A stretch of DNA of 64,000 bases from Haloarcula limicola (GTDB lineage Archaea > Halobacteriota > Halobacteria > Halobacteriales > Haloarculaceae). A program made the position numbers and the translations under genes. Location: assembly GCF_010119205.1 (NCBI RefSeq), contig NZ_WRXM01000001.1, positions 806,001 through 870,000 on the forward strand, in the 5' to 3' direction. Of the stretch, positions 3,160 to 5,131 are shown piece after piece (the first letter of the stretch is position 1; each line of letters begins with the position of its first letter). The notes beneath the pieces were generated by a model, which saw only the letters and a list, made by a program, of their open reading frames with translations, was not told the DNA's origin and did not search any database.

Positions 3160-3444
3160 ATGACCAAGGTAGATTCGAAGGGGCGGATCGTCCTCCCGCA
3201 GGAGGTGCGAAAGCGTCTCGGCATCTCTCCGGGCTCAGAAGTCGAAGTCCGCGAAGAAGACGGGAAAGCGGTCGTCGAACCCGAAGACGACCCCGAGGAG
3301 ATTATTGACCGAATGGAGAAACTCGTCGGAGAAACGTCGGTAGAACGCGGGGAGACGACGCCGTTCGACGGCGGCGCTCGCCCGACGGCACAGAAGCACA
3401 GAGACGCGATTCGACGCGGAGCCGAGAGAAACGGCGATGAGTGA
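3160..3444 (+). CDS. AbrB/MazE-type antitoxin, DNA-binding
   Basis: A 94-residue protein with an N-terminal swapped-hairpin AbrB domain: KVDSKGRIVLPQEVRKRLGI, then a GSEVEVREEDGKAVVEP strand pair (residues 1-45). An acidic C-terminal tail is likely the toxin-binding part. In such modules the AbrB dimer binds the operator and neutralises the partner nuclease. The start at 3160 is fixed by the SpoVT/AbrB start motif and by the operator-promoter just upstream. An in-frame extension back to 2995 would be translated palindromic DNA and is rejected. The last eight bases overlap the toxin start, so the pair is translationally coupled. Confidence 0.88.
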   Translation: MTKVDSKGRIVLPQEVRKRLGISPGSEVEVREEDGKAVVEPEDDPEEIIDRMEKLVGETSVERGETTPFDGGARPTAQKHRDAIRRGAERNGDE

Positions 3445-3904
3445 CGCCGGCGGTCCGTATCTCTTCGACGTCGGTGTCATCGCGCTCGCACACACCGACG
3501 CCCCGGTTCGGGACACAGCACTCTCGTACGTTCGAGATGCCATCACCGGCGAGATCGATGCCGTGGTCCCGTATCCGGCGCTATTCGGAGCGCACACCGT
3601 CCTGACGACGTACTACGGTCGCTCGAACGAGGACGCGTCTCGGCTACTACAGAACTTCATGGACGCGAAGCGAATCCACTGGTACGGCGAGATGTCAGAG
3701 GCGGGCGTTCGAGACGGGTTCTCGCAGGCGACTGCCGCGAACGTCGGCGGCTGGGACGGATACTACGCGCAGGTCGCCGTCGAGGAGGGCGTAAACACCG
3801 TCTTGACTATCGACGACGACTTCGAGCGATTCGACGCGTTCGATACCGAGATCATCCTCTCCGCCGACGAATTTGCCGAACTGAATCGGTTTCTCGGGAG
3901 CTGA
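3437..3904 (+). CDS. PIN-domain nuclease toxin (VapC-like)
   Basis: A 155-residue PIN-fold protein paired with the AbrB antitoxin. Acidic residues that would bind metal are D11 (LFDVGVIAL), D107 (GGWDGYYAQ) and the D126-D128 run (TIDDDFERF). The glutamate usually found near residue 45-55 is not evident, since that stretch reads PYPALFGAHTVL. VapC-type toxins cut tRNA or rRNA, but the target here cannot be read from sequence. The module sits in a patch of palindromes and repeats between core genes, consistent with lateral acquisition. Whether it is catalytically active remains open because of the missing acidic position. Confidence 0.85.
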   Translation: MSDAGGPYLFDVGVIALAHTDAPVRDTALSYVRDAITGEIDAVVPYPALFGAHTVLTTYYGRSNEDASRLLQNFMDAKRIHWYGEMSEAGVRDGFSQATAANVGGWDGYYAQVAVEEGVNTVLTIDDDFERFDAFDTEIILSADEFAELNRFLGS

Positions 3905-3984
3905 GGCTCCCACCTGCCACGTTCCGCTATCCGGCCGCACCGCTCAAGTTCGCGAATAAAGCGAGAATCGGGAGTCGGCGTTAC

Positions 3985-4053
3985 TCTTCGGCGCCTTCGA
4001 TCTCGTCGACGATCTCGTCGGCGTCGACGTCGGCGTCTTCCAGCGCTTCCTCG
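3985..4053 (-). repeat. 69-bp direct repeat, outer copy of the FKBP gene 3' end
   Basis: These 69 bases are identical to 4179-4247, the last coding bases of the FKBP gene. Read on the minus strand they encode the same acidic C-terminus and then end in GAG TAA, while the intact gene ends GAA TAG. This is therefore a detached duplicate of the gene end, separated from the gene by the 125-bp element at 4054-4178. It probably represents the original gene terminus, because what follows looks like ordinary AT-containing intergenic DNA. Confidence 0.9.
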
Positions 4054-4178
4054 CGACCTTTTTCCCGCTCGGGTGGCCTGTGGCCACCACTCGCGGCAAA
4101 AACGTCGGCGAAAAAGCCCGAATCCTCACTTCGTTCGGATTCGGTGAAACCGCGCCTTCGGCGCGGTATACTGTCTAT
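4054..4178. repeat. Hairpin-rich dispersed element, copy 2, inserted at the FKBP gene end
   Basis: This copy carries three hairpins: GGTGGCC/GGCCACC (4072-4088, loop TGT), CCGAATCC/GGATTCGG (4118-4144) and ACCGCGCC/GGCGCGGT (4149-4167, loop TTC). It shares the unpaired core CAAAAACGTCGGCGAAAAAG and the flanking GAAACCG...CGGTAT with copy 1, while stem sequences differ yet stay paired. The element is flanked by 69-bp perfect direct repeats of the gene's 3' end and supplies the gene's present stop codon (TAG at 4175-4177). On the minus strand the second stem is followed by CTTTTT, which may terminate FKBP transcription. Confidence 0.75.
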
Positions 4179-5131
4179 TCTTCGGCGCCTTCGATCTCGT
4201 CGACGATCTCGTCGGCGTCGACGTCGGCGTCTTCCAGCGCTTCCTCGATGTCAGCGCCGCCGGCACCGCCCATGCCGCCCATCATGCCGCCCATTCCCAT
4301 GCCCATGCCGCCGCCGAGCTCCTCCTGGACGATGATCCGGTCGACGTCGAGCAGCTGGGTGAGCTGCTGGGCGATCTGCTGCTTGCCCATCATCCACTGC
4401 TGGTTCATCGTCAGCTGCGGCGTGGCCTCGATGTAGAGCGTGTCCTTCTCGACCTCGACGGTCTCGAACTCGGGCTCGCCCTCGTCGTCCTCGTCGGACT
4501 CGACGGGCTGCTCCTCCTCGACGGTGTCCGTCTCGAACCAGAGGTCCAGCTCCATGTCGAGCATCATCTGGATGATGCCCTGTGCCTTCTCCTCGCGGTC
4601 CGTGACTTCTTCGACGATCTCGTAGTCGTACTCGACGTCCTTACCGGCCAGCGGGTGGTTGAAGTCCACGCGGGCGCGGCCGCCGATGATCGTCTCGACG
4701 TGGCCGTGCTGGCCGTCGACGTCGACGTGCGCGCCGGGGTAGCGGTCGTCCTCCGGGATCTTGTCCTTCGAAATGGTGCGGACCTCTTCCTCGTCGTACT
4801 CGCCGAAGGCGTCGGCGGCGGCGATGGTGACGCTGCCCTCGTCGCCGACCTCCTTGCCGTAGATGTCTTCCTCGACGTCCGGGAAGATGTGGTTCTCGCC
4901 GAGGACGATAGTTCGGGGACCGAACTCCTGCTCTTCGGTGTCGATGCCGTCGTCGGCGGCGACCTCCTCGTCCGTCGTGTCCACGAGTTGCCCGTCCTCG
5001 ACGGTGCGGGCGGTGTAGGCGAGTTTGACGACGTCGCCCTCCTGCAGGCCGCTCTCGGTCTCTTCGTCGGCCGTCGCTTCTTCGGCTTCCGCTTCTACGT
5101 CTTCTGTGTCGGCCTCGGAGTCGTTGCTCAT
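4175..5131 (-). CDS. FKBP-type peptidyl-prolyl isomerase (SlyD-like, long archaeal form)
   Basis: A 318-residue cytoplasmic prolyl isomerase and chaperone. Residues 1-27 are an acidic linker. The FKBP domain starts at GDVVKLAYTARTVEDGQLVDTT and contains the IF (insert-in-flap) region with YPGAHVDVDGQHGHV and DFNHPLAGKDVEYDYEIVE. A C-terminal domain follows, with a Met/Gly-rich stretch (GGGMGMGMGGMMGGMGG) and an acidic tail. The start is fixed by a TATA-like TTCTTAAGA at 5155-5162, about 27 bases upstream, giving a leaderless message. The last 23 codons are duplicated downstream around an inserted element, and the final stop lies in that element, yet the protein end (EE) is preserved. Confidence 0.92.
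   Translation of the reverse strand: MSNDSEADTEDVEAEAEEATADEETESGLQEGDVVKLAYTARTVEDGQLVDTTDEEVAADDGIDTEEQEFGPRTIVLGENHIFPDVEEDIYGKEVGDEGSVTIAAADAFGEYDEEEVRTISKDKIPEDDRYPGAHVDVDGQHGHVETIIGGRARVDFNHPLAGKDVEYDYEIVEEVTDREEKAQGIIQMMLDMELDLWFETDTVEEEQPVESDEDDEGEPEFETVEVEKDTLYIEATPQLTMNQQWMMGKQQIAQQLTQLLDVDRIIVQEELGGGMGMGMGGMMGGMGGAGGADIEEALEDADVDADEIVDEIEGAEE
4179..4247 (-). repeat. 69-bp direct repeat, inner copy within the FKBP gene
   Basis: These are the last 23 codons of the FKBP gene, identical base for base to 3985-4053. Perfect identity over 69 bases suggests a recent event. Together the two copies bracket the copy 2 element exactly. Confidence 0.9.

Follow-up and report, generated by a model that had tools for sequence, protein, structure and literature searches.

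The closest counterparts found in the literature for the element analyzed here are the small mobile repeats SMR-A/B of Haloquadratum walsbyi, the movement of which has been called enigmatic (PMC3119063); no description of a family of its type was found beyond these SMRs. SMR-A/B are haloarchaeal, non-coding repeats of about 80–110 bp with prominent inverted terminal repeats and no known transposase (PMC3119063), and in these respects they resemble the family described here, which we call the E family. However, SMRs do not duplicate their target and reside mainly in IS605-type elements and PATEs (PMC3119063), whereas members of the E family are associated with duplications of 25–275 bp and occur at gene 3' ends. 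Thus, the E family shares with the SMRs the character of a short non-coding repeat with prominent inverted ends, but not the absence of a target duplication, given that 78 of 144 copies are followed by a gene-end copy, S'.

The second point of comparison is transcription termination. In Haloferax, a T5C sequence caused about 95% of the transcripts to terminate (PMC7237163). Haloarchaeal T5C terminators (PMC7237163) and E units are alike in that CTTTTTC is present on both strands directly at gene ends, together with hairpins, whereas mobility and gene-end duplication are not known for ordinary terminators and are both seen for E units.

REP/REPIN palindromes and the IS200/IS605-derived PATEs are likewise short extragenic palindromes with conserved mismatches. 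They are thought to need a Y1 transposase and, to our knowledge, do not duplicate their target, whereas the E family does so, and its source genome contains no Y1 transposase. MITEs, too, are short, non-coding and dispersed, with inverted ends, and copy a short target of fixed length. SINE/LINE-type retroelements show the same combination of a fixed 3' end, a variable 5' end and a variable target duplication, but no reverse transcriptase (RT) was found in the genomes carrying E. Finally, integrative elements in the 3' ends of tRNA and protein genes also duplicate and restore the gene end around the insert; they differ in encoding an integrase and using one target core, whereas the E unit comprises about 125 bp and occurs in many unrelated targets. 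We know of no mobile element that leaves such gene-end copies beside itself, and we file the E family as non-autonomous small mobile repeats with an unusual habit of duplicating gene ends.

The locus at the center of this analysis lies in a stretch of 64,000 nt from Haloarcula limicola (contig NZ_WRXM01000001.1, positions 806,001 to 870,000), hereafter the window. We propose that a 125-bp segment at the end of an FKBP-type gene is a non-coding, hairpin-rich mobile terminator of the Haloarculaceae that was inserted by a template switch of host replication or repair, with release upon completion of the palindrome. We assign this reading a probability of roughly one half; that an insertion with a long duplication took place as such is highly probable.

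Duplication of the FKBP gene end

The FKBP gene (Table 1) contains the Pfam domains FKBP26_IF (3.2e-09) and FKBP_C (2e-05), and orthologs were found in the searched Haloarcula-type genomes. Its last codons are present twice. Positions 3985–4053 and 4179–4247 are identical over 69 bp, the slightly longer segments 3982–4053 and 4176–4247 (72 bp) differ by one mismatch, at a start-to-start spacing of 194, and exactly 125 bp (4054–4178) separate the two copies. Comparison of coordinates and sequences thus confirms the base-perfect duplication bracketing the element that had been described in the initial annotation. The live gene ends with GAA TAG and the outer copy with GAG TAA; the TAG lies on the insert side and was therefore correctly assigned to the element.

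Table 1. Features of the FKBP locus (positions in the window)
Feature	Position	Strand	Remarks
FKBP-type peptidyl-prolyl isomerase gene, live copy	4175..5131	(-)	ORF 5131->4175, 318 aa; stop TAG 4175–4177
Inner (live) copy S of the gene end	4176..4247	(-)	4179–4247 equals outer copy, base for base
125-bp insert, putative mobile terminator unit	4054..4178	(-)	left leader plus palindromic core E; without counterpart at FKBP in G041 and other relatives
Leader hairpin 1, ACCGCGCC-GAA-GGCGCGGT	4149..4167	(-)	RNA fold
Leader hairpin 2, CGAATCCG...	4118..4144	(-)	RNA fold
CTTTTTCGC, T5C-type termination signal ahead of E	4108..4116	(-)	conserved before E
Palindromic core E, CGACGTTTTT...AAAAAGGTCG, 54 bp	4054..4107	(-)	fixed right end at 4054; opposite strand reads CGACCTTTTTC
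Outer copy S', the displaced original end GAG TAA	3982..4053	(-)	TAA = 3981–3983
Original FKBP 3' flank, now beyond S'	3951..3980	(-)	homologous to G041 flank, by inspection of sequences

In the closest relative found (G041), the FKBP gene is 98% identical and uninterrupted, ending with GAAGAGTAA followed by CGCGGCTCCCGATTCTCGATTTTTCGC; the outer copy in the window ends with the same GAAGAGTAA, followed by CGCCGACTCCCGATTCTCGCTTTATTCGC. Because the G041 gene runs from GAG TAA straight into the outer-copy flank, the insert and the duplication are new in the lineage of the window. The outer copy and its flank are thus the original gene end, as the initial annotation had supposed. The uninterrupted gene ending with GAG TAA that it proposed to look for in a close relative is present in G041, and the element-free relatives end with GAG TAA, in agreement with the claimed insertion at a gene end. 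The FKBP sites of G045 and G046 are also empty. In G013 and G020, a related element lies about 90 bp farther downstream of FKBP, without a duplication, and the element is absent from the other Haloarcula FKBP ends. None of the searched relatives carries E directly at the FKBP stop, and a tandem duplication lacking the element, which had been named as counterevidence, was seen in none of the relatives examined. In the flank, the T5C-type ATTTTTC of G041 reads TTTATTC in the window, as would be expected if the displaced terminator were out of use.

The two FKBP copies have common variants that are absent from G041, yet they differ from each other at 1 of 72 bp; therefore, the duplication arose locally, after the split from G041. 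These shared variants, as well as the absence of E directly at the FKBP stop in the searched relatives, argue against the capture of a foreign allele, in which a piece consisting of gene tail, terminator and E would have recombined within the gene tail, with the E end joined non-homologously and the native tail left as a remnant. At FKBP, the lineage-specific variants common to both copies point to local duplication, which is why we prefer the template switch.

In 464 kb of the source genome, 12 near repeats were detected in total. The FKBP end is the only duplication of a protein-gene end among them; three loci are arrays at tRNA 3' ends, and the others are short or of low complexity. This control and the repeat comparison rule out a chance repeat or low complexity as the cause of the duplication, and an assembly error at this single locus is made unlikely by the family-wide pattern described below.

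The window also contains, at positions 3160–3904 (+), a gene for a MazE/AbrB-type antitoxin and, after it, a gene for a 155-aa protein that matches no Pfam family; the two may form a toxin pair of the PIN type, and the FKBP end flanked by E is convergent to them.

The insert as a putative terminator

The 125-bp insert forms three stacked hairpins in the RNA fold (z = −7.0 versus shuffled sequence). It most closely resembles a G041 E unit (87% over 119 bp, 53/54 in the core), and since that unit sits at a different locus, the units move between loci. No near-identical source copy of the insert remains in the source genome. The two strands of E units carry CTTTTTC and CSACCTTTTTC, respectively, and at the FKBP gene end a T5C signal is present on the transcribed strand; sequence and position together suggest that the unit acts as a bidirectional terminator.

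The E family

E is an imperfect palindrome of 50–73 bp (CSACGTTTTT...AAAAAGGTSG). The outer stem is closed in the folds of all 141 distinct E sequences, and the terminal base pair covaries, with C..G in 113, G..C in 27 and a mismatch in 1 (140/141). The front half of E is present in 17 copies in the source genome, and the full core, searched with a strict pattern that misses degenerate copies in one genome per species, is found genus-wide, with up to 20 copies per genome, and the family reaches other Haloarculaceae. The reversed E pattern, used as a control, gave no matches. There was also no Rfam match over E or the leaders in 10 loci, ruling out a known RNA family.

The gene-end duplication, which the initial annotation had suggested looking for at other copies, recurs: S' follows directly after E in 78 of the 144 distinct copies, starting 1–10 bp past the right end. 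When the flanks were swapped between copies, such a match occurred in only 1 of 427 pairs, and with loci fetched as orthologs of flanked ones excluded, 71 of 135 copies have S'. For the source genome the value is 7 of 19, including one case in which the duplication is located between two tandem elements rather than at a gene end. S' has a length of 25–275 bp (median 61) and a median identity of 95%; duplications this long and variable rule out an ordinary MITE, which would make a short one. The same pattern was observed in Halomicrobium, Halorientalis and an unclassified halobacterium.

At three loci (L012, L018, L114), a second hairpin element (GAGCGGGACC..GGTCCCGCTGACCATGCGAACGGGCGC..GCGCCCGTGAGCAGAG) is nested inside E at GAG^TGG, reminiscent of SMRs, which insert into palindromes.

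Junctions, polarity and age of the copies

The right end of the E unit is fixed. On the other side, 0 to about 110 bp separate the left copy from E, apart from one outlier. With genes near the targets called by a simple codon-usage script, 58 of the 60 distinct targets have their E-side junction inside a gene, which reads toward E in 54; the mirrored arrangement never occurs among the 60. At L009, L101, L173, L220 and L244, apparently one gene in several species, the gene start is copied instead of the end, and tandem arrays of S plus E are present in G008 and G014. The insertion point has no preferred reading frame (20/16/21), the start positions of S have no common core across targets, and no clear microhomology was found at the right junctions of 48 targets. 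A loosely conserved NNGC is present between AAAAAGGTSG and the start of the gene copy in these 48 targets.

In about half of the targets, the homology between the copies stops at the stop codon; in eight it extends beyond, sometimes up to E. Mismatches become more frequent toward the stop codon; with three misaligned cases set aside, most of them are synonymous. Copy identity that stops at the stop codon, not in the flank, is not predicted by a simple target duplication.

Several of these features would suit classical transposition, in which a transposase or recombinase making widely staggered nicks generates genuine target-site duplications that are long and vary in length: E has a fixed right end, the palindromic ends have covarying terminal pairs, true empty sites exist (at FKBP and at the aminopeptidase and purM-like genes discussed below), and the same target position is used in different species. 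Nevertheless, the strict orientation relative to genes speaks against it, and we know of no transposase that makes variable duplications of 25–275 bp. In addition, the Y1 transposase domain (Y1_Tnp, PF01797) is absent from the source genome G000 and from the carriers G003, G004, G007 and G014, which rules out a Y1/IS200 route for the source genome. Taken together, we regard transposition of this kind as distinctly improbable. SINE-like retrotransposition, here by target-primed reverse transcription of a structured terminator RNA, also classically leaves what is seen in this family: a 3' end that is fixed, a 5' end that varies and long target duplications of variable length. However, a search for the RT domain RVT_1 (PF00078) found it in 0 of 31 genomes, while 3 of 14 reference genomes gave positive controls; the route is largely refuted by this result, could be revived only by an RT outside PF00078, and has a very slim chance of being correct.

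Copies with and without S' differ in several respects. The fuller leader with two hairpins is present in 33 of 45 copies without S' versus 9 of 60 with S', and a convergent gene has its stop codon only 0–4 bp away in 27 of 66 unflanked versus 0 of 78 flanked copies. Among the 11 of 16 G041 copies that fit a fuller E pattern, counterparts in the window genome exist for 5 of 9 unflanked and 0 of 2 flanked copies, so that flanked copies look young and unflanked copies old. Copies lacking a flanking duplication had been named in the initial annotation as evidence against its proposal. They do occur (66/144), but by this comparison of G041 with the window genome they appear to be the older ones.

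At an orthologous site in G041 (L316) and G000 (L005), E and the leader hairpins differ in the sequences of their arms. It seems that copies exchange hairpins without changing their position.

Other target loci

For an aminopeptidase gene, G011 has the empty site and G015 the filled one, in which S' runs into a flank of the G011 type. For a purM-like gene, the insertion is present in G000 but missing from G041; G045 has one at nearly the same junction, and the site is empty in G014, G022 and G046. At an ileS/valS-type gene, the same junction is common to G000, G002 and G004. Such recurrent junctions mean either that the same site is hit repeatedly or that old insertions are often lost cleanly via recombination between S and S'.

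The shared junctions and the patchy presence would also be compatible with a site-specific integrative element of gene 3' ends, of which E would be a shrunken remnant, with circles of tail plus E that are lost and re-enter via S/S'. A duplicated and restored gene end is the pattern left by integrases, and the same genome contains arrays at tRNA 3' ends. Yet the target genes are many and unrelated, the start positions share no core, and the insert of only some 50–180 bp shows no coding capacity; we judge this origin very unlikely.

In G002 and G004, the live tail of the ileS/valS-type gene, with its flank, resembles G016, and the outer copy corresponds to the genus-typical allele. That the two tails belong to different allele groups, that the flank of the live tail matches G016, that the mostly synonymous mismatches increase toward the stop codon, and that homology ends there are what the allele capture introduced above would leave behind. 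However, later allele replacement and gene conversion leave the same signs, and capture alone does not explain the fixed right end. In view also of the FKBP copies, we consider capture unlikely. The rising, mostly synonymous mismatches and the foreign tail would fit allele exchange or gene conversion at some insertions. As to the hint at end capture or replication slippage in the initial annotation, either may apply: the FKBP copies were duplicated locally, and the live ileS/valS-type tail looks foreign.

Possible mechanism and implications

In the template switch that we favor, replication or repair synthesis would leave the gene end and then copy a resident E unit; the nascent strand would be released on completing the palindrome, and synthesis would resume farther upstream within that gene, either on the same chromosome or on its sister, so that the tail is copied twice. 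Insertions would be tolerated because the protein is kept whole by the duplicated tail or by a stop codon in the leader, and because a terminator comes with the unit. Older copies would have lost S' and would remain as bidirectional terminators. Several observations tell against this mechanism: pure slippage leaves the strict orientation unexplained, the right junctions show no clear microhomology, the copies usually cease to match at the stop codon, the live ileS/valS-type tail of G002 and G004 resembles that of G016, and the source genome retains no near-identical source copy.

A broader possibility, which we put forward tentatively and consider somewhat doubtful, is a class of mobile elements without transposase or RT, in which the palindrome itself would induce host replication to change templates, copy it and resume upstream, each jump duplicating and preserving a gene end and adding a terminator. 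Mobility of this kind would show how a compact archaeal genome rebuilds gene ends and transcription terminators while its genes stay intact, and would amount to a way of moving, transposase-free or otherwise, that leaves a clear and readable signature. It would also explain orphan gene-end fragments in haloarchaea to annotators, and it opens the long-standing question of the movement of small mobile repeats in haloarchaea to direct tests.

Further hairpin elements at gene ends

Another gene-end hairpin element, with the loop CGACCAGCGGGAG or similar, is present at L108, L110, L111, L114 and L124 (tails of ileS/valS-type genes) and at L145 and L152. The loop-CGACCAGCGGGAG element alters the C-termini in several species, for example to ..EADQREASEQASGD.

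At L063:17068-17525, L067:17018-17335 and L073:18910-19375 (G000:C1), tRNA genes are followed by repeats of their 3' halves that alternate with hairpin spacers. These look like arrays of mini integrative elements; the spacers at the tRNA-Lys gene and in L073 include an inverted T-arm.
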